A stretch of 36,028 nt of DNA from Methylococcaceae bacterium (GTDB lineage: Bacteria; Pseudomonadota; Gammaproteobacteria; Methylococcales; Methylomonadaceae), in the NCBI GenBank assembly GCA_013141155.1, contig JABFRM010000010.1, positions 1 through 36,028 of the forward strand, in the 5' to 3' direction. The translations under genes and the position numbers were made by a program. The notes beneath the pieces are model-generated. The model was not told the DNA's origin, made no database searches, and worked only from the letters and a program-made list of their open reading frames with translations. Of the stretch, positions 5,790 to 17,521 are shown piece after piece; position 1 is the stretch's first letter, and each line of letters starts with the position of its first letter.

Positions 5790-6134
5790 GACTGATGAAT
5801 ATGGGTTTAAAAAAATGGCGCTTATTGAAAGAATGCAATAACGATAAAGGCTATGGCAGTGTTCAAATAGACATTATCTACTAAACCAAAAGCTTTAAGT
5901 AGCGTAAAAACTGCATAGCCTTGGTTTATAAGCGGCAATGCTCTCTTGAGCGCATAAGCCCTCCTGATTATAAAGATGCTTCAGCTAAGCACCTGCAAAT
6001 TTAGTGATGCGTAGTGATATATTGATGCTTTGCCCTCGTTTTTATGGCGTTATTTGTAACCGCTATGACTAAATGAGTATCAATAGCCGTATAAATGCGT
6101 TGGCCGAACTTAAATAAAACGAAGGAATGGTGCG

Positions 6135-6155
6135 CATAATTTTATACAAATTATG
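6135..6155. promoter_or_regulatory. Possible operator palindrome
   Basis: An 8-bp perfect inverted repeat, cataattt / aaattatg, with a 5-nt spacer. It lies just upstream of the four-site array. It could be an operator or a simple AT-rich palindrome; there is no direct evidence of a regulator. Confidence 0.3.
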
Positions 6156-6161
6156 TTTTTA

Positions 6162-6293
6162 GGTTATTTGACACATTCAATGCGGCAAATAACGCAATAC
6201 ATTACGCCTATAATTCAAGGCATTGCTAATAAATATCCCTTAAATTACATTAAATGTGTCAAATAACACAAATTTAATGCGTTAAATAACACA
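6162..6293. promoter_or_regulatory. Array of four 16-bp dyad sites (candidate enhancer/UAS)
   Basis: Four related sites: 6162-6177 (reverse orientation, AATGTGTCAAATAACC), 6181-6196 (TGCGGCAAATAACGCA), 6255-6270 (TGTGTCAAATAACACA) and 6278-6293 (TGCGTTAAATAACACA). All share a CAAATAAC-like core flanked by TGYG / CRCA half-sites. The best copy fits TGT-N10-ACA, the pattern known for NifA-type enhancer sites. The sites form two close pairs, with centres 19 and 23 bp apart. They sit ~185-315 nt upstream of the predicted sigma-54 start, the usual distance for a bacterial enhancer-binding protein. The identity of the regulator is unknown. Confidence 0.6.
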
Positions 6294-6450
6294 GTTTAAT
6301 TAAATATGGCCGCGCATGATCGAATTTTTCACAACCAGCTCGACATAGAGACAAATACACCGCAACAAAAAAACCCTTAATACATTGAATTTATAATAGC
6401 TATTTATAGCCCCTTAAAATAAACGCGTTTTTTTAGCTTATTCGTACAAT

Positions 6451-6467
6451 TTGGCATAGAACATGCC
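6451..6467 (+). promoter_or_regulatory. Candidate sigma-54 (-24/-12) promoter
   Basis: TTGGCATAGAACATGCC has the invariant GG (6453-6454) and GC (6465-6466) exactly 10 nt apart and matches most of the YTGGCACG-N4-TTGCW consensus. Transcription would start near 6477, giving a ~70-nt leader before the ATG at 6549. The upstream dyad array strengthens the call. Confidence 0.55.
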
Positions 6468-6548
6468 TTATTAACAGTAACTATGGATGGCTAATATTAA
6501 GCAGCCATTAGTTAAACTTAACAATAATGAATGTTTTAGGAGAAATGT

Positions 6549-7526
6549 ATGACACGCTCAATAAAAATCAAAAGGACTGCGTTTAGTTCAATTTCAGCCG
6601 TAGTCGTGTTAGCGGCTAGCCAAGGTGCATTTGCGCATACGCGCCTAGAAACCGCCACGGTACCGGAAGCAACCAGAGTGCATAATGCGCTTAATGTGAG
6701 TCATGGCTGTGCTGATCCCACCGGTGCATTAGCGGGCGAAGGGGCTTTAAAAAATCAACCAACAAGAGGTACCACAGTAGTTTTCCCTAATGCTATTAGT
6801 TATTTACCTATCATTGGGGTTGACTCCACTTCTGACGGCAAAGGCACAGCAAAAGTTTATACCCCTAATAAAGCTGATGCGTACTATACGCCCTTGGCTG
6901 GCATAGGACAGTTGATCCATACCGGTGGGCCATGGGACTACACGAATATAAAAGTGGATGCTTTAAAAAACAAAGATGGCTTTTGGGCCGGTGGTGCGCC
7001 GTATGATCAAACCATTAGCACTTATGTGCAAGTCGCTTTTTATTCCGCCGCGGTTACGATTGCCCCGACTTCTTGCGCCCGTTCAGTTACTTTTGAACTT
7101 GCGGTTGCGGATATTTGCGATTTGACTGCCAAAAGCCCGAATATTGGTGATGCGCAAGCGTTATTTTGGTCACCGATCCCCAATTTTGAAGGTGTGCCAG
7201 GGCAGCCTTTTGGCGCCGGCGTGGGTGATCCGGCTCGTGCTAATAATCCCGTTCCGGTTGGCCCTAAATTTTCTAATTACGATGGCTGGTCAAACGGCGA
7301 CAAAGTGGGCATGGGCGCTGCCACAGCAAAAGCTGGCGATGGCTGGAATTCACCTGCCACTTTAAAAGTCACCCGCGATCTGGTTAAAAATCCGTTGCCT
7401 GCTAGCTGTACCGGCAATGCGGGCAAAGGCGACGATGTATATATTTATCCTTCTGCTGAGCAAATTAATAAAGAATTGCCGGTCTGGTCCAATCCTGATC
7501 AAACTGGCAGCAACTATTGGAAATAA
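6549..7526 (+). CDS. Exported protein with mature N-terminal His, YcnI/DUF1775-like N-region
   Basis: A 325-residue exported protein. It has a Sec signal peptide with cleavage predicted after 'GAFA' (residue 29), so the mature chain starts with His30. The segment 'AHTRLETATVPEATRVHNALNVSHGC' followed by 'PTRGTTVVFPNA' resembles the start of DUF1775/YcnI proteins, where the N-terminal His is a copper ligand and an 'HGC...PT' segment follows. The rest (Trp- and Gly-rich, with Cys54, a 'TSCARSV' Cys, a 'DICDL' Cys and a 'PASCTG' Cys) is longer than ordinary YcnI. AGGAG lies 6 nt before the ATG. It is monocistronic: its own terminator follows at 7596. A periplasmic copper-binding role is an inference; the family assignment is moderate. 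Confidence 0.7.
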   Translation: MTRSIKIKRTAFSSISAVVVLAASQGAFAHTRLETATVPEATRVHNALNVSHGCADPTGALAGEGALKNQPTRGTTVVFPNAISYLPIIGVDSTSDGKGTAKVYTPNKADAYYTPLAGIGQLIHTGGPWDYTNIKVDALKNKDGFWAGGAPYDQTISTYVQVAFYSAAVTIAPTSCARSVTFELAVADICDLTAKSPNIGDAQALFWSPIPNFEGVPGQPFGAGVGDPARANNPVPVGPKFSNYDGWSNGDKVGMGAATAKAGDGWNSPATLKVTRDLVKNPLPASCTGNAGKGDDVYIYPSAEQINKELPVWSNPDQTGSNYWK

Positions 7527-7766: not shown

Positions 7767-8216
7767 ATGAAAAATACAGTATTGAAAAAAATTTTACTAT
7801 CCACAGCAATCCTATTGAGCGCAGGGTTTTCGTCTATAACCTTAGCCCATTCAGGCGGCGCAACGCTTGGCGCTGATGCCAGCGCAACTGATTTGGCTTC
7901 TGTTACTTGTTATGACGATGGCAATGGTCCAGCGGATCATTTATTGATCGCGGTAGAAGATGGTTCCGCTCCCATCCCAGGCTTATTGGTGAATATGCAA
8001 GCCTTTAAAGATAACAAAATGACCAATGTCACTGATCCAGTTTCGGGCGATGGAAATTCTAGCCCAGAAGCAATGCTTCGAGGTGGCAATGGCGATTATC
8101 GTATCTCCGTGAACAAAACCAATACGGGTCTCAGAGATTTTGAGGTTACGTTTCATTGTGAAACCAGTAATAATATCCATACCGGTACGGATATTAATGT
8201 TTTACAAGTGCAATAA
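7767..8216 (+). CDS. Small exported protein with mature N-terminal His
   Basis: A 149-residue protein. I prefer the ATG at 7767 because it opens a clean signal peptide 'MKNTVLKKILLSTAILL', with cleavage after 'ITLA' (residue 27). The upstream in-frame TTG at 7728 would spoil this. The mature protein begins with His28, as in the preceding gene product. Two cysteines remain, C48 in 'SVTCYDDG' and C131 in 'TFHCET', well placed for one disulfide. The alternating polar/hydrophobic pattern suggests a small beta-sandwich. I do not recognise the family. The His start and the neighbours suggest a metal-binding periplasmic protein, by inference. No clear Shine-Dalgarno sequence precedes the start. Confidence 0.65.
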   Translation: MKNTVLKKILLSTAILLSAGFSSITLAHSGGATLGADASATDLASVTCYDDGNGPADHLLIAVEDGSAPIPGLLVNMQAFKDNKMTNVTDPVSGDGNSSPEAMLRGGNGDYRISVNKTNTGLRDFEVTFHCETSNNIHTGTDINVLQVQ

Positions 8217-8365
8217 TTGCCAGGATCACCGCGGTAAGCAATTTAAATTTATAGTATATATCTACAGAAAACACACGCTCAACCATTATTAACGGGTCTT
8301 TCAGTTATGCTGCTGAGCGATTTTGTCAAGCACCAGGAAAGCGATAGCAACGCACATAACCTTCG

Positions 8366-8389
8366 GGTGGCGTTGGCTATTGCGCCACC
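8366..8389. repeat. Hairpin upstream of tlpA-like gene
   Basis: A 7-bp stem, ggtggcg (8366-8372) and cgccacc (8383-8389), with a 10-nt loop, lying 21 nt before the tlpA-like start. There is no T-run. It may be a leader structure or an extragenic palindrome. Confidence 0.4.
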
Positions 8390-8409
8390 TCATTCAAAAA
8401 TATTCACGT

Positions 8410-8922
8410 ATGATTCAGCGATTATTAACCTTAATTTGCGCCTTACTGCTATACCTGATGTCAGGCCTAAGCTTCGCAGAAACCGAGCGCAAAGCCCCAA
8501 GTTGTGCATTAACTTCAATGGATACCCTGCAACGCTATGATTTGCAGAAATTTCAGGGCAAAGTTGTTTATGTGGATTTTTGGGCTTCCTGGTGTCCGCC
8601 TTGCGTAAAATCGTTTCCTTTTTTGAACGATCTTGAGCATGATTTTAAAGATCAAGGTTTGCAAGTTATTGCGATAAATTTGGATGAAGCGTTGCAAGAC
8701 GCAAAGGATTTCCTAGCAAAGCAGCCTGCCAACTTTACGCTAGCGCTGGATACCAGCAAACAATGCGCGCAAGCGTTTGGGGTTATGGCGATGCCGTCCT
8801 CTTATTTAATTGACCGCAAAGGCATTATACGGCACACCTCCCTAGGATTTCGGCCAGAAACTGCCAAAGCATTGCGGACTTTAACCCAGCAATTGTTAAA
8901 AGAATCTGGTGAGCAAAAGTAA
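8410..8922 (+). CDS. TlpA/ResA-like periplasmic thioredoxin
   Basis: A 170-residue protein from the ATG at 8410, which starts a signal peptide/anchor 'MIQRLLTLICALLLYL' ending in 'SFA' (residue 23). An upstream in-frame start at 8323 would put 29 polar residues before it and is less likely. The thioredoxin active site is 'WASWCPPC' (C62, C65), and the cis-proline loop is 'AMPSSYLID'. This is the membrane-anchored or periplasmic TlpA family, which reduces disulfides on exported proteins, often cytochromes or copper proteins. Its stop codon directly abuts the DUF4266 start (taaatg), so the two are translationally coupled. The order tlpA-DUF4266-DUF3570-apbE is a conserved arrangement I know from other proteobacteria, with no settled function. 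Confidence 0.85.
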   Translation: MIQRLLTLICALLLYLMSGLSFAETERKAPSCALTSMDTLQRYDLQKFQGKVVYVDFWASWCPPCVKSFPFLNDLEHDFKDQGLQVIAINLDEALQDAKDFLAKQPANFTLALDTSKQCAQAFGVMAMPSSYLIDRKGIIRHTSLGFRPETAKALRTLTQQLLKESGEQK

Positions 8923-9138
8923 ATGAACATAAGGTTATTTGCACTGTTAATTCTTTTTATGCAAGGCATTACAGGATGCGCTGCTGTTGCACCGTGGGAA
9001 CGCGGCACTTTAGCGAAGCCGCACATGGCGATGGATCCCCATCCCCTCCAGACTGTGATGCGTGCGCATAACTACAGCAGCCGCGAGGCAGCGGTAGGCG
9101 GCCATTCTTCAGGAGGCGGTGGCTGTGGCTGTTACTAA
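8923..9138 (+). CDS. DUF4266 small lipoprotein
   Basis: A 71-residue lipoprotein. The signal peptide ends in the lipobox 'ITGC', with acylated Cys19, so the mature part is only ~53 residues. The body carries the DUF4266 hallmarks 'PWERGTLA', 'SREAAVGGH' and a C-terminal glycine-cysteine tail 'GGGGCGCY' whose two cysteines could bind metal or be a TlpA substrate. The start codon abuts the tlpA-like stop, and the end overlaps the DUF3570 start. Within the tail codons lies AGGAGG (9111-9116), which serves as the ribosome-binding site of the next gene. The function is unknown. Confidence 0.85.
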   Translation: MNIRLFALLILFMQGITGCAAVAPWERGTLAKPHMAMDPHPLQTVMRAHNYSSREAAVGGHSSGGGGCGCY

Positions 9139-11827
9139 AGCTAAACTATCCCTGCTTGCAAAGTCTGCCACACAACGCTCTCTGCCAGTTAAAACGCCTA
9201 CAAGTACCCCCAAATCCAAATCGACCGCTATTGCCAACGCTTCGCTACACGCTTTGACTGCCGCAGCCTTGGCTTTGCCTGGCTTAACCCTGTCGCCAGT
9301 AGTCATGGGGAGCGATGATGAAGTCAGCTTTCAATATGGGCATTATCAAGAGGGTAAACGGGATCTTGCTAATATTCGTAGTAATTTAAAACCCATCGAA
9401 GTGGACAGTCTGCAAGGCAGCGCACGCGTATCCCTGACGGATCGGGTTAAATTTGCATTTAACTATCTTCAAGACACCTGGAGTGGCGCAACCCCCATCA
9501 GCACTGCGCCGCTTGCTTTCAGGGAAAACTATGTCAAATCGACAACCTCCGGCGCATCGCCCTATATAATGCCCTCAAACCTCACCCCTACCCGCCTTGA
9601 TGCACAGCTCAACCCTTTGATGCTTGATCCTGCCACAGGTAAATTTATTAAAAATACGCAATTGGTACATACACTGTCTTCTGCTTCGCCCGAGACCCGC
9701 AAACAAGGGGACTTCAAACTGGGTTATGAATGGGATGAAGCGGCGGTTGAGTTAGGCGGCGGCATTTCGCTTGAAAACGATTATGAATCGCGCTTTGGCA
9801 ATGTCGGTGGACGAATGGATTTTAACCAGAAGCTGACTACGCTCAATCTAAACTTAAGCTATACCAATAGCATTACCCAAGCCACGTTGGATCATGATGC
9901 CGCACCTTATATTTATGAATCGTCCAACCCGCTCGCCAGTTATAATTCAACCCATACCAGCAGCCAACTTGCAAATGTTGGCACGTCCTCATCGTTGGCA
10001 AAAGTACTGACGGGCAATCGAGAAGATTGGGCAACCGTTCTGGGATTAACGCAAGTTTTGAATAAACAGGCGATAATTGAAGCGAGTCTCGGTTATACGA
10101 ACAGCGCTGGCTATATGGCGAACCCTTATAAAACAGTCACCACTGTTTTTGTTGATCCCGCGCAAACACCTGGTGCTGGCGGCGTCTTAAATGGCACAGT
10201 ACTCGCCTTACTTGAAAAACGACCGAATGAACGCAACCAATGGTCAGCTAACTTTCGTTACGTGCAACAAATAGAATCCCTAAATGCAGCACTCCATGCC
10301 AGTTACCAACTTTTTCACGATGACTGGGGCATTACCGCCCACACTTTTGAGCTGGATTGGGCGCAACCTATGGGGGATAGCTGGATGGTTACACCTAGGA
10401 TTCGATACTATTCGCAAGATGCCGCTGATTTTTATGTACCCTATATGGTGTCCAAACAAGCAACACCGGGGGGGAGATTTTTAGTGCCGTTGAACACAAC
10501 CAAACTCCCTGCCAACTACTCTAGCGACCAGCGACTTTCCGCATTTGGCGCATTAAGCGGCGGCATCGCGATCAACAAGCAATTTGCCAAAGGTGTTAGC
10601 CTAGAAGTCGGTGCGGAATATTATACCCACGCCGGATCACTGATGTTGGGTGGTGCTGGCGAAGGCGCTTACGCTGATTTTAATTATTATATGGTTAATG
10701 CGGCGCTGAAAGTTGATTTATCGGCGCTATCATTGTCTAAGGGTAAATTTTTCAATCACAGTGAACATATAGATCATAGCGAACACGCTGGTCATTATCA
10801 GGACAGCGGAGATAAAAAGCAAAGCCAGCCGCACCATAATCATCACAACGCGCCTGCTGGCGTCATGTTTGACCACCTACTGGGTAATGCCGGTGATTTT
10901 ATGGTCGGTTATCGTTATATGTATGCTTTTCAGGGCGGCTCAATGCAGCACGGCGCCGATAACGTCAGTGATCGCGCCATTATTAATGCCGGCTGTAATG
11001 GCAAGCCGTGTTATGTAGCGCCAAATAGTATGAATATGCACATGCACATGCTGGATTTGATGTATGCGCCAACCGATTGGTTGACGCTAATGCTGATGCC
11101 GCAGTTTCTGGATATGAACATGGCCATGCAGCCTTTGGAAGGCGCACCGAATAGCACTGGCTTAACAAATGCCGCCGTGCAACATTCGCAACATCCCCAT
11201 AACACTGGTGGTATTGGCGACACCAGCCTGTATGCACTGTTTAAATTATTCGACCTCCCAGGACATCATTTTCACGCAACGCTGGGGATCAGCGCACCAA
11301 CGGGTGATGTGGGTATACAACTCCGTGATACCCACGGTGTCGCTATTGGTTTTATCCACTATGGCATGCAATTGGGTAGCGGTACTTGGGATTTTAAACC
11401 CAGCCTCACCTATACCGGCGAGTTGGATGAATGGTCATGGGGTGCGCAACTAAACGGCATTACACGGCTTGAAGATCGCAATTCTTCAGGATTTGCCTAT
11501 GGGGACATTTTTCAAGGCACGGCTTGGGGAAATTACCAATTGTCAAATTGGCTTTCAGCCTCCGTACGCGGCGTTTATACGCTTCAGGGTCAGAATACAG
11601 GCGCGTATAATGGCAAATATGCCCCCATCGGCCCTATGGACTACGCCAGCAGCTACGGCGGACGCTATTGGGATGTTGGATTTGGTCTAAGTGCCGCCGT
11701 ACCTTCTGGCGATTTGCAAGGCAACCGCTTGAGTTTTGAATGGCTACAACCAGTGCATGATGAGGTGAATGGTTATCAATTGCCTCGGGAAGGGGCGCTA
11801 TCGGCCACTTGGAATTATGGGTTTTGA
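9125..11827 (+). CDS. DUF3570 protein fused to a His/Met-rich outer-membrane barrel
   Basis: About 900 residues. I chose the GTG at 9125 because AGGAGG at 9111-9116 then has ideal 8-nt spacing; the GTG at 9119 would leave only 2 nt. An N-terminal signal region ('LHALTAAALALPGLTL', ~35-55) leads into a DUF3570 region rich in beta-strands ('VSFQYGHYQEGKRDL', 'VSLTDRVKFAFNYLQDTWSGATP') to ~residue 540. A linker at ~544-577 has nine His in ~32 residues. A second beta-barrel-like region follows (~580-900) with Met/His clusters 'MNMHMHMLDLMY' and 'MLMPQFLDMNMAMQ'; it ends in an aromatic-terminated strand 'TWNYGF' typical of outer-membrane proteins. In related clusters the second region is, to my knowledge, a separate transporter-like gene, so this looks like a gene fusion. 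Metal binding is an inference. Confidence 0.8.
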   Translation: MAVTKAKLSLLAKSATQRSLPVKTPTSTPKSKSTAIANASLHALTAAALALPGLTLSPVVMGSDDEVSFQYGHYQEGKRDLANIRSNLKPIEVDSLQGSARVSLTDRVKFAFNYLQDTWSGATPISTAPLAFRENYVKSTTSGASPYIMPSNLTPTRLDAQLNPLMLDPATGKFIKNTQLVHTLSSASPETRKQGDFKLGYEWDEAAVELGGGISLENDYESRFGNVGGRMDFNQKLTTLNLNLSYTNSITQATLDHDAAPYIYESSNPLASYNSTHTSSQLANVGTSSSLAKVLTGNREDWATVLGLTQVLNKQAIIEASLGYTNSAGYMANPYKTVTTVFVDPAQTPGAGGVLNGTVLALLEKRPNERNQWSANFRYVQQIESLNAALHASYQLFHDDWGITAHTFELDWAQPMGDSWMVTPRIRYYSQDAADFYVPYMVSKQATPGGRFLVPLNTTKLPANYSSDQRLSAFGALSGGIAINKQFAKGVSLEVGAEYYTHAGSLMLGGAGEGAYADFNYYMVNAALKVDLSALSLSKGKFFNHSEHIDHSEHAGHYQDSGDKKQSQPHHNHHNAPAGVMFDHLLGNAGDFMVGYRYMYAFQGGSMQHGADNVSDRAIINAGCNGKPCYVAPNSMNMHMHMLDLMYAPTDWLTLMLMPQFLDMNMAMQPLEGAPNSTGLTNAAVQHSQHPHNTGGIGDTSLYALFKLFDLPGHHFHATLGISAPTGDVGIQLRDTHGVAIGFIHYGMQLGSGTWDFKPSLTYTGELDEWSWGAQLNGITRLEDRNSSGFAYGDIFQGTAWGNYQLSNWLSASVRGVYTLQGQNTGAYNGKYAPIGPMDYASSYGGRYWDVGFGLSAAVPSGDLQGNRLSFEWLQPVHDEVNGYQLPREGALSATWNYGF

Positions 11828-11829
11828 GG

Positions 11830-11878
11830 GATAAAGTTTCAGGCTTTATCGTGTGGGCGCGAATGAGTCCGCACCCAC
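11830..11878. repeat. Two consecutive hairpins between DUF3570 and apbE genes
   Basis: The first is gataaag (11830-11836) with ctttatc (11844-11850). The second pairs gtggg (11853-11857) with cccac (11874-11878), extended by three more pairs past one mismatch. Neither has a T-run. They may weaken or modulate read-through into the apbE-like gene 90 nt further on. Confidence 0.4.
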
Positions 11879-11967
11879 AGCATCCGTTTAGCCTAACTTA
11901 ATGTTAATGCCATTTCTGAGTAGTAACAATATAAAGATTCAGCAACCATGACCGTACAGCATTTAGC

Positions 11968-12906
11968 GTGAAATTTTACCAACATGCTTTCAAAGCAATG
12001 GGTACGCCCTGCGAAATTCAACTTTATAGCCAAACACCAGCCAAAGCCACACAGGTTGTCAACAAAGTTATCGCCGAAATAGCGCGCCTAGAAACACGCT
12101 ACTCCCGTTATCGCAACGACAGCTTTCTCTCAAAAATCAATCAAATCGCCGCCCTTGGCGGCAGTATCAGTGTCGATGCGGAAACCGCTGGATTACTTAA
12201 CTATGCCGCGACCTGTCACATCCAAAGTGATGGCTTATTTGATATTACTTCGGGTATCTTGCGGCGTGCCTGGCGATTCGACCAAAACACCCTGCCCGAT
12301 CCACAGCACCTTGCCGCATTACTGGAAAAAGTAGGTTGGCACAATTGCCGCTGGCAATCACCCACCCTTAAATTTCTAATCCCTGGCATGGAACTTGATT
12401 TCGGCGGCATCGTTAAAGAATATGCCGCTGATCGGATTGCTGCCCTGTGCTGGACGGAAGGCGTGCAACATGGCTTAATCAATTTAGGTGGCGATATTAA
12501 AATTATCGGCGCGCAACCAGACGGGAACCCTTGGCGCATCGCCATTCGTGACCCTCGGCATCCCGATGGCCTATTACAAACCCTGTTGTTGCAACAGGGT
12601 GCCTTGGCGAGCAGCGGTGATTACGAACGTTGCATCACTATTGCAGGCGTGCGTTACGGGCACATACTTAATCCCAAAACTGGCTGGCCGGTACAGCATT
12701 TAGCCGCAGTCAGCGTAGCAGCAGATTTTTGTGTGGTTGCAGGCAGTGCGGCGACTATTGCAATGCTTAAAGCGCACAACGGCATTCAATGGCTGGAGGA
12801 TTTGAGCTTGGCACATTGCTGGGTTGATGTCACGGGCAAGACCGGTGGGTCGCCGGCGCATGGGAACGATAATCATAAACGCCCCCTCCTTGGAAAAAAG
12901 GGCTAG
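11968..12906 (+). CDS. ApbE-type FAD:protein FMN transferase
   Basis: A 312-residue protein starting at GTG; no upstream in-frame start precedes it. ApbE family members cleave FAD and attach FMN to a Ser/Thr of a target flavoprotein, or bind FAD. Motifs seen are 'KAMGTPCEIQLY' at the N-terminus, 'LETRYSRYRNDSFLSKIN', 'MELDFGGIVKEYAADRI' (the LDxGGIxKGYA flavin-binding motif, with Glu replacing the usual second Gly), 'GLINLGGDI' and 'HILNPKTGWPV' with the following 'VVAGSAATIAM' Mg-binding region. There is no signal peptide or lipobox, so it may act in the cytoplasm. No obvious FMN-acceptor protein lies in the cluster. The C-terminal ~25 residues are polar and non-conserved in appearance. Confidence 0.85.
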   Translation: MKFYQHAFKAMGTPCEIQLYSQTPAKATQVVNKVIAEIARLETRYSRYRNDSFLSKINQIAALGGSISVDAETAGLLNYAATCHIQSDGLFDITSGILRRAWRFDQNTLPDPQHLAALLEKVGWHNCRWQSPTLKFLIPGMELDFGGIVKEYAADRIAALCWTEGVQHGLINLGGDIKIIGAQPDGNPWRIAIRDPRHPDGLLQTLLLQQGALASSGDYERCITIAGVRYGHILNPKTGWPVQHLAAVSVAADFCVVAGSAATIAMLKAHNGIQWLEDLSLAHCWVDVTGKTGGSPAHGNDNHKRPLLGKKG

Positions 12907-15286: not shown

Positions 15287-17521
15287 ATGGACGCATCAAA
15301 AAATCCCCCTATGACTGAATTGCGTTTATCTATTTTAGGTATGCGTTGTGCGGGTTGTGTAAGTGCCGTCGAAGGTGCGTTGGCAAATGTGCCGGGCGTA
15401 ACTGCCGCGAGCGTTAATTTTGCCGACCACTCCGCCTTGGTGAAGGGTAATGCTGCACCTGAGCTGTTAAAAGCCGCGGTAAACGCAGCGGGTTATGATG
15501 CCGCCGTAATGGAAGGTTTGGAAGATCCTGAGCAGCAAGAACGACAGGAACTTGCCCGTTATCGGGAGTTATTAAAAAAGGCCAGTGTGGCTGCCGCTTT
15601 TGGTGTGCCATTGATGCTCGCGGAACACATGGCTTGGTTGCCGGAAATTGGAGTGGGTGCAGGGCTATGGTTTTGGCCCTTGGTGGCAATATTCACTTTT
15701 GGCATTTTAAAGTATTCCGGTGGGCATTTTTTTACTGGCGCACTTAAAACCCTCCAGTTACGCCAAGCGAATATGGATACGTTAATTGCCCTAGGCACTG
15801 GATCAGCTTGGTTGTACTCGTGTGTCATACTTGATTATTCGGCTAGTTTGCCCGCCATTGCCAAACACGCTTATTTTGAAGCGTCCATAATGATTTTGGC
15901 GTTTATCAATTTGGGTTCGGCATTAGAAACGCTGGCGCGAGGGAAAACCTCCAGCGCCATTCGGAAATTAATTGGCTTGCAGCCGCGCACTGCACGGGTT
16001 ATCCGTGAAGGCAAAGAAGTCGATATTCCTATTGAAGAAGTCGGGCTGGGCGAGACCTTAAGAGTCAGGCCAGGCGAAAAAATTGCGGTGGATGGTCAAC
16101 TCATTGAAGGCTATTCCGCTATTGATGAGTCCATGTTAACGGGTGAATCAATGCCAGTTGAAAAAACCGTCGGCGCAACCGTGGTGGCAGGCAGCATGAA
16201 TCAACAAGGCAGCTTTTTGTTCACCGCTACCCGCATTGGACGAGATACCGCCTTAGCACAGATTATCAACAGTGTCCGGCAGGCGCAAAGCAGCAAACCG
16301 GAAATTGCTAAATTGGCGGATAAAATCTCTGCGGTGTTCGTACCTACTGTGGTGGCTATTTCAACTTTAACTTTTTTGATTTGGTGGACATGGGGGCCAG
16401 ACCCTGCGGTGGGTTATGCGTTTGTCACTTCAATGACCGTGTTAGTGATTGCGTGTCCCTGCGCATTGGGTTTGGCGACGCCGATTTCCATTATGGTGGC
16501 AGTCGGGCGCGCAGCGCAGTCCGGTATTTTGATCCGCCAAGGGGAGGCATTACAAACCGCAGGAAAATTGACCTGTGTCATCCTGGATAAAACCGGCACG
16601 GTGACCGCAGGCAAACCCTCGGTGGTAAGTGTGCAACCAATCGGCAGCTATACCGAAAACGACATCTTAAGCTTTGCAGCGAGCATTGAATCTGGCTCCG
16701 AACACCCGCTGGCGGCGGCCATAATCGCCGCCGCCAGCACACAAAACATTAAACCTCAAAAAGTCACCGAATTTGCAGCGATTATGGGTCAGGGCGTAAC
16801 GGGGCAATTGGCCAAACAGTCGCTGGCATTTGGGAATCGTGCACTCATGGAAGCACAGGGGATTAAAATCACTCGACAGATCAAAAAACTGGAACAACTG
16901 GCAGGATTAGGACAAACGCCTATGCTACTTGCCGTCGATAAGAAAATTGCCGGTATTATTGCCGTTGCCGATCCGATCAAAAAAGATTCTGCCGAGGCCG
17001 TGCAACAGCTAAAACAAGCAGGTATCCGCGTGATTATGGTCACCGGTGACAATCAAATCACCGCCCATGCCATTGCCAGGCAAGCAGGCATTACCGAAAT
17101 TCGCGCGCAGGTGTTACCGCAAGACAAAGCCGCTATCGTTAAAGCGCTTCAGCAAGCCGGAGAAGTGGTCGGTATGGTCGGCGATGGTATCAATGATGCT
17201 CCGGCACTGGCGCAAGCAGATGTTGGTTTAGCGATTGGTAGCGGCACCGATGTTGCAATCGAAAGTGCGGATGTGGTCATTTTACAAGGCTCATTGTTAA
17301 AAGTACCGGAAGCGATAGCCTTATCGAAAGCAACGGTACTTAATATCAAACAAAACTTAGTGGGGGCGTTTTTTTATAACACCCTGAGTATTCCGGTGGC
17401 GGCAGGAGTGTTATATCCTGTGTTCGGCGTATTGTTAAACCCGATGATTGCAGGCTTGGCAATGGCGTTATCTTCACTTACAGTAATTGCGAATGCCAAC
17501 CGCTTACGTTGGGTGAAATGA
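15287..17521 (+). CDS. copA: CopA-type Cu(I)-exporting P1B ATPase
   Basis: A 744-residue inner-membrane pump that exports Cu(I) from the cytoplasm using ATP. It has one N-terminal HMA domain (GMRCAGC, C21 and C24), eight expected membrane segments, and the P1B-1 signature C390-P-C392 in '[12 protein letters not shown]'. The phosphorylated Asp434 is in 'DKTGTVT'. The actuator motif is '[10 protein letters not shown]', the nucleotide-binding His is in 'GSEHPLAAA', and the hinge is '[11 protein letters not shown]'. The last segments contain '[16 protein letters not shown]', the M-x-x-S-S site of copper-type pumps. It follows copZ with 82 nt between them. The length and all catalytic residues are normal. 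Confidence 0.95.

Follow-up and report, generated by a model that had tools for sequence, protein, structure and literature searches.

What controls the gene at 6549, which encodes an exported protein and stands behind what looks like an enhancer-dependent sigma-54 promoter, and does this arrangement belong to that gene alone? Switches of this type are usually linked to nitrogen or motility genes. The window, i.e., the whole stretch of 36,028 nucleotides analysed here, is contig C214 of a draft Methylococcaceae genome (3.55 Mb in 354 contigs, 92% complete). Overall, we consider it likely that 6160–6467 is a sigma-54 control region whose dyads are bound by an enhancer-binding protein (EBP), that it belongs to a family-wide regulon acting as a copper-scarcity switch, and that the EBP encoded on contig C95 is the activator.

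Paired dyads upstream of a sigma-54-type promoter

Four copies of a 16-bp dyad lie in two close pairs, starting at 6160, 6181, 6255, and 6278, between 174 and 292 bp upstream of a −24/−12 match, much as the first-pass annotation of this DNA had described them. The features of the region are as follows:

6160–6175, unstranded: distal dyad 1 (TAGGTTATTTGACACA), two mismatches to TGTGTCAAATAACACA, matrix score 18.3
6181–6196, unstranded: distal dyad 2 (TGCGGCAAATAACGCA), three mismatches to TGTGTCAAATAACACA, matrix score 14.4
6255–6270, unstranded: proximal dyad 1 (TGTGTCAAATAACACA), no mismatch, matrix score 23.1
6278–6293, unstranded: proximal dyad 2 (TGCGTTAAATAACACA), two mismatches to TGTGTCAAATAACACA, matrix score 21.9
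6452–6467, plus strand: sigma-54-type −24/−12 site TGGCATAGAACATGCC (GG-N10-GC), read from the sequence
6538–6542, plus strand: ribosome-binding-site-like AGGAG, read from the sequence

The two distal dyads are spaced 21 bp start to start and begin 292 and 271 bp upstream of the −24/−12 site, while the proximal dyads are spaced 23 bp and begin 197 and 174 bp upstream of it. Exactly 10 bases separate GG from GC in TGGCATAGAACATGCC, the spacing reported at first pass, and the site has the TGGCAY...TGC context; transcription would be expected to start about 12 bp downstream of it.

Dyads were scored with a matrix trained only on 17 dyad sites located before CorA-like genes of other genomes, which avoids circularity. 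The four dyads are the four top-scoring matrix sites in the 36 kb, and only two places elsewhere score at least 9 (12.2 and 9.6). Because the matrix finds four sites within 5790–6548, whereas first-order Markov resampling (2000 rounds) yields 0.05 on average and 2 at most, the dyads are beyond what chance would produce. Across genomes, the comparative dyad consensus is approximately TGTGTYAWWTRACACA, and outside the window's genus it is often TGTGTYATATRACACA.

The motif first proposed for these dyads, TGT-N10-ACA, had to be given up: it fits one copy of the four, and it occurs five times in the window against 9.3 expected, i.e., without enrichment. TGT-N10-ACA is the site of NifA, which works with sigma-54, and the dyad consensus does contain this pattern, with one exact copy among the four. 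That the dyads are NifA-type upstream activating sites is nevertheless very improbable, since three of the four do not fit the pattern, the regulon targets looked at (see below) are not nif genes, and the NifA cut-off was reached by none of the 10 EBPs scanned among the 12 strong ones of this 92%-complete genome (best 375.9 of 528.85; the C219 and C208 EBPs lay outside the scan).

Conservation of the control region before 6549 homologues

Both parts of the initial reading, enhancer-type paired sites and a sigma-54-type promoter, are conserved before orthologues. In counts that concern related sequences rather than independent trials, and that leave out L148 and L150, which lack upstream sequence, and L164, from Phycisphaerae, dyads were found within 450 bp upstream of 21 of the 26 Methylococcales homologues of 6549, window included, against 0.22 expected from resampling; the remaining five have none. 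A relaxed −24/−12 pattern, TGG[ACT]AY-N6-TG[CAT], chosen after the sites had been seen, occurs between −180 and −40 in 25 of these 26 upstream regions (0.27 expected), always 71–159 bp before the start codon. The strict form ending in TGC, which was added alongside it, occurs in the same interval in 18 of 26 (0.12 expected) and is missing from eight. Five homologues from lake MAGs carry the variant TGGCAY-N6-TGAT/TGTA at −12.

Spacing was compared among neighbouring dyads with scores of at least 12 and no more than 60 bp apart. Before 6549 homologues, 13 of the 16 pairs are 21–23 bp apart and the other three 30–31 bp, and at distinct CorA-like promoters the distance is 21–22 bp in five of six pairs and 32 bp in the sixth; all distinct pairs pooled, 18 of 22 are spaced 21–23 bp and four are spaced 30–32 bp. 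The proximal dyad begins 76–80 bp before the −24/−12 site in 13 of 20 cases and 100–102 bp before it in four, and it lies farther away in the window (174 bp), L134 (166 bp), and L156 (283 bp). An oligomeric EBP needs dimers placed two or three helical turns apart, and the putative control region presents paired dimer-type sites on the same helical face, upstream of the promoter, as is characteristic of an EBP enhancer.

An exported protein with a predicted YcnI-like fold

The gene behind this promoter heads a cluster of five:

6549–7526, plus strand: exported protein (signal peptide by eye) with a predicted YcnI-like fold; His30, His52, Cys54, and Trp207 invariant in 24 homologues
7767–8216, plus strand: small protein, second gene of the cluster, judged by eye to be exported (signal-like stretch followed by AHSGG); no match to a Pfam or NCBIfam family
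8323–8922, plus strand: TlpA/ResA-like thioredoxin-fold protein (family match)
9119–11827, plus strand: DUF3570 protein (family match)
11968–12906, plus strand: ApbE family protein (family match)

Protein 6549 had been called a His-brace-like exported protein, and the fold comparison agrees with this. It is 325 amino acids long, and the residue that follows the signal peptide (assigned by eye), His30, is invariant. An AlphaFold2 model built from the 24 homologues reached a mean pLDDT of 75, and a Foldseek search of this model against the PDB placed YcnI chains on top, with a best E of 1.5e-3 and none below 0.001. Structural alignment to YcnI (8um6_A) gave a Z of 9.8 and an rmsd of 2.8 with 128 of 129 residues aligned, model residues 30–277 corresponding to YcnI 27–155; the second structural match, an uncharacterised Nocardia protein (3esm), had a Z of 9.4, and the next rows a Z of 5.6. 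Protein 6549 is thus predicted to have the YcnI copper-chaperone fold. This assignment comes from the fold comparison alone: neither Pfam (E 0.001, DUF1775 profile included) nor NCBIfam gave a family match, and sequence profiles found no meaningful match in the PDB.

YcnI binds copper via His27, Glu50, and Trp137, and many proteobacterial members are described as being without the Glu (PMC8424229). Protein 6549 resembles the YcnI/DUF1775 chaperone of Bacillus subtilis in predicted fold, N-terminal His, and conserved Trp, with His30 and Trp207 invariant across 24 sequences, but it differs in being longer, in having no Pfam match, and in that no equivalent of Glu50 could be established. The invariant His52 may stand in for this Glu, and a brace formed by His30 and His52 would be a guess.

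Among named contigs, carriers of 6549 homologues are Methylococcales (Methylobacter, lake Methylococcaceae MAGs, and others), and more distant homologues occur in Nitrosomonas and a few other MAGs. The order of the genes that follow 6549 (7767–12906) is kept in many methanotroph and Nitrosomonas loci; the cluster is common to methane and ammonia oxidisers, and Pfam does not name its function. Farther on, an HMA-type P-type ATPase gene lies at 15287–17521, 8.7 kb downstream of 6549; no match to it was found in 45 homologous 6549 loci, many of which end short of 8.7 kb.

Upstream of Nitrosomonas-type homologues, we found no dyads (0/17) and no −24/−12 match at −180 to −40 (0/17); the relaxed pattern occurs somewhere in the 450 bp in three of 17, each time outside that interval. 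Since the cluster of 6549, small protein, TlpA-like, DUF3570, and ApbE genes is present in both groups, the promoter was gained or lost independently of the genes.

A family-wide set of genes behind the same sites

The first-pass annotation had envisaged an activator dedicated to 6549. Instead, these sites recur before an entire group of copper-associated genes. Its interpretation is thus partly supported, and its core reading stands, now widened from one gene to a regulon. The genome-wide search for dyads near other −24/−12 sites, which it had put forward, was productive: six of the 86 exact TGGCAY-N6-TGCW sites in this genome have a dyad 40–250 bp upstream, compared to 0.31 expected (Poisson P ~9e-7, a rough value because contig C194 alone carries three of the six), and none of the 86 has a dyad downstream. 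Five of the six face a gene on their contig. The products are a CorA-like protein, a TonB receptor, a 165-aa protein, and two exported proteins with His at the mature N-terminus, as judged by eye; the sixth site points off the end of C194. On C194, a MauG-like gene (weak Pfam match) lies further on from the CorA-like gene. Two proteins encoded behind the regulon promoter (L053 492–1616 and L057 5374–6183) are exported by eye, with a His after the signal-like stretch and a PEP-CTERM-like tail, also by eye, and belong to no Pfam family.

CorA-like genes are present in 17 of the 201 family genomes. Their 19 loci represent 17 distinct promoters (two pairs are identical; L186, with 7 bp upstream, and L195, with no match, were left out), and a strict −24/−12 site stands at 14 of these 17, against 0.04 expected; dyads at 13 of the 17 are circular, the matrix having been trained there, and are not counted as evidence. 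The sole PDB match of a CorA-like profile was CorA itself (4BZ4), a weak one (E 0.45) over GWTHHSNW, and the CorA-like protein of C194, searched as a single sequence, matched nothing in the PDB.

The pattern extends to other genomes. In 20 dyad-holding regions from 11 of them, a −24/−12 site with a score of at least 12 lies near 19 of 40 dyad clusters, compared to 0.6 expected. The other 21 clusters, including all six in G004, are without a −24/−12 site of score 12, and the dyads may thus also act without sigma-54. Genes behind the clusters include those for a MauG-like cytochrome, a 6549-like exported protein (by eye), TonB receptors, and ECF sigma factors, with Pfam support for two TonB receptors and for ECF sigma in two of the three scanned, and a further cluster precedes a peptide gene, the first of an operon that also encodes an HMA P-type ATPase and a DsbD_2 protein. 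Family-wide, the palindrome TGTGTNANNTNACACA was found at 215 sites in 95 of the 201 genomes, compared to 37 sites in 33 genomes for the reversed pattern.

A 16-bp palindrome is the usual site of a dimer, and a good −24/−12 match is missing from those 21 clusters as well as from seven of the eight dyad-bearing loci of the DsbD_2-EBP operon described below. Both observations would suit a repressor or a sigma-70-type regulator (a Fur/CRP-like dimer) bound to the dyads, with the −24/−12 match being incidental. We regard this explanation as improbable: the −24/−12 site is similarly placed before 25 (relaxed) or 18 (strict) of the 26 homologues of 6549, it accompanies 19 of 40 clusters when 0.6 would be expected, and its association with dyads in this genome is one-sided, upstream only, while EBP sites are typically paired two or three helical turns apart and remote from the promoter.

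Several other genes stand behind the same elements. ECF sigma genes (L248 4352–4867, L249 5584–6099, and L239 5729–6253; Pfam matches for L248 and L239) lie behind dyads and a −24/−12 site, and a cascade from sigma-54 to ECF sigma factors is possible. Two peptide genes (L244 5323–5538 and L238 5533–5754; 71 and 73 aa) lie behind a dyad and a −24/−12 site, with genes for an HMA P-type ATPase and a DsbD_2 protein after the one in L244; these peptides could be copper-related small proteins. In G195, a response regulator gene (L231 14302–15000; Response_reg and Trans_reg_C) lies behind two perfect dyads and a −24/−12-like site.

On sequence grounds, we infer that the dyad-plus-promoter unit before this copper-associated gene set marks a family-wide regulon of the copper-acquisition type. 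Copper is proposed as the signal because of the kinds of target genes and because of the published copper repression of CorA and CorB. ECF sigma and TonB receptor genes belong to iron uptake too, and a signal other than copper, e.g., redox state, iron, or methane supply, would accommodate them; we consider such a signal unlikely, as copper-type content recurs across the regulon in the YcnI fold, the CorA-like genes (weak match), the MauG-like neighbour on C194 (weak Pfam match), and the HMA P-type ATPase with DsbD_2, and as CorA/CorB repression by copper points the same way.

A candidate activator encoded next to DsbD_2

This genome holds 14 EBP matches (sigma-54 interaction domain), 12 of them strong. 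The search for an orphan enhancer-binding regulator suggested at first pass yielded a candidate among these, the C95 EBP, which has no sensory domain and whose gene directly follows that of a DsbD_2 membrane protein. C95-type EBPs are found below an E of 1e-100 in 189 of the 201 family genomes, and the best E in each of the other 12 is above 1e-80.

The loci compared are the 30 best matches, L236, and 36 hand-picked ones, and are not a random sample; these 67 EBP loci reduce to 65 distinct ones, and the 64 with a DsbD_2 neighbour to 62, as two pairs have identical EBP sequences, one being a single locus present twice and the other stemming from two genomes. Left out of the dyad counts were L317–L319, which are not EBP loci, and three EBP loci without a DsbD_2 neighbour. 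DsbD_2 adjoins the C95-type EBP in 62 of the 65 distinct loci. G[AS]FTGA occurs in all 65 distinct EBPs, and the HCxxMC motif in 60 of the 62 distinct DsbD_2 matches; in the remaining two, the alignment does not extend over the motif.

Dyads are present upstream of the DsbD_2-EBP operon itself in eight of 62 distinct loci, from five genera, while resampling gave a mean of 0.4 and a maximum of 3; the other 54 loci are without dyads, and none was seen upstream of this genome's own operon. For comparison, 71 loci from other EBP searches (237 kb, including five C95-type and two weak AAA matches, L307 and L311) gave a single matrix match of score at least 12. In seven of the eight positive loci the dyads lie at −77 to −102, and those seven are without a −24/−12 site, which suits autorepression, a known behaviour of EBPs, or another role. 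The eighth (G079, second copy) has two strong dyads and a −24/−12-like site at −106. This comparative evidence points to autoregulation and, through it, to the identity of the activator, the C95-type EBP being the most likely activator of the dyad regulon. G183 (99% complete) has dyads and a −24/−12 site before its 6549 homologue, yet no C95-type EBP below an E of 1e-80.

Control of an EBP without a sensory domain by a partner protein is familiar from PspF and PspA. The candidate resembles PspF in architecture, but its partner is a DsbD_2 membrane protein, and it missed the PspF cut-off (267.1 of 443.55).

A competing view, less probable but to be taken seriously, keeps the sigma-54 regulon as proposed and places another EBP on the dyads, i.e., a C219-type PAS-AAA protein, the sMMO regulator MmoR, or a two-component EBP. 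In G163, a C219-type PAS-EBP gene (L035 1369–3592, G163:C18) neighbours a distant 6549 homologue and points away from it, although this locus has no dyads. The C219 type is widespread: it is found in G058, G062, and G094, and its sensory part matches 106 of 201 genomes. The sensory domain is absent in G010, G058, and G076, but G058 keeps the AAA part (75% identical over 232 residues), so this absence does not count against the C219 type. Yet none of 30 C219-type loci has a dyad at up to three mismatches, and 29 of them gave one matrix match (L114). As for MmoR, this genome has sMMO genes with an adjoining EBP, possibly MmoR: a partial operon on C149 (L099, 293–7377) encodes a MmoB family protein, the hydroxylase gamma chain, a reductase, a Cpn60-like protein, and an EBP. 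We take this EBP beside the Cpn60-like gene to be MmoR-like, and the Cpn60-like protein to be MmoG-like. A search for mmoX (PF02332) gave no match in this genome and none in the controls either. A C208-type EBP is disfavoured by its distribution: it occurs in 47 of 201 genomes but is missing from genera g12 and g18, where some of the highest dyad counts lie. Among the EBP loci compared, apart from L114 and a two-mismatch site near an NtrC-type gene in G188 (L284), dyads were seen only at the DsbD_2-EBP operon.

Relation to known systems and proposed mechanism

The regulon recalls the copper-repressed surface proteins CorA/CorB of Methylomicrobium album BG8 and MopE/SACCP of Methylococcus capsulatus in that it contains, by sequence, CorA-like and MauG-like genes. 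Both CorA and CorB are repressed by copper in M. album BG8 (PMC3912023), and copper limitation induces CorA and MEALZ_0810-0811 in M. alcaliphilum (PMC11784148). The CorA-like gene of the regulon differs from CorA in its weak sequence similarity (E 0.45), and the available parts of these two reports name no promoter or activator for corA (PMC3912023, PMC11784148).

Other systems share individual components. The copper-responsive MCA0424 cytochrome operon of M. capsulatus has a copper response and a predicted sigma-54 promoter in common with the regulon, but the elements upstream of it were reported to be FUR and IHF sites, with no EBP dyads in the accessible portion of that report (PMC4831470). 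Control of sMMO by MmoR and sigma-54 likewise combines an EBP with sigma-54 in copper-tied methanotroph genes, but MmoR has another target and acts with MmoG, and its binding sites are not given in the part of the source at hand (PMC5874634). In Myxococcus xanthus, CorSR places a sigma-54-type response regulator over copper genes; it is, however, a two-component system for copper tolerance genes, while the candidate EBP here is without a receiver domain and has a DsbD_2 partner (PMC3707914). Among the literature matches listed (titles and abstract starts, with partial coverage), none described, for methanotrophs, copper genes under a sigma-54 regulon, the dyads found here, or a pairing of DsbD_2 with an EBP; the regulon and its proposed regulator are apparently undescribed.

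The mechanism we favour builds on what can be read directly, i.e., the sites, their conservation and helical phasing, their co-occurrence with −24/−12 matches, the gene contents, and the dyads before the DsbD_2-EBP operon (8/62). The 16-bp dyads would be paired EBP binding sites that hold two dimers two or three helical turns apart, and the bound EBP would drive RNA polymerase with sigma-54, presumably RpoN, at 6452–6467, leading to transcription of 6549 and probably of the cluster behind it. Such a site-plus-promoter unit would also control, across the family, genes for YcnI-fold exported proteins, CorA-like proteins, TonB receptors, and ECF sigma factors, as well as the copper P-type ATPase operon. 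As CorA/CorB are repressed by copper, the regulon would, by analogy, be switched on at copper scarcity, and the DsbD_2 protein with its conserved HCxxMC could report copper status to the C95 EBP, the probable activator. The copper signal and the named activator are, in our view, good hypotheses.

More tentatively, and with greater doubt than confidence, we propose that DsbD_2 (HCxxMC) and the EBP may form a two-gene copper-sensing master switch of copper acquisition in Methylococcales methanotrophs. The membrane protein would sense copper or pass it on and, at high copper, hold the EBP inactive; at scarcity, the freed EBP would act at helically phased TGTGTYAWWTRACACA pairs to switch on the sigma-54 regulon and would, in some genera, limit its own operon via those sites.

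Which methane monooxygenase a methanotroph makes, and how well it oxidises methane, depends on copper. The analysis defines an operator sequence, lists target genes, and singles out one candidate regulator operon, and thereby turns the control of this response into a testable question. If true, the proposed regulon would put sigma-54 to an unusual use, with an enhancer-binding protein sensing metal in a new way.
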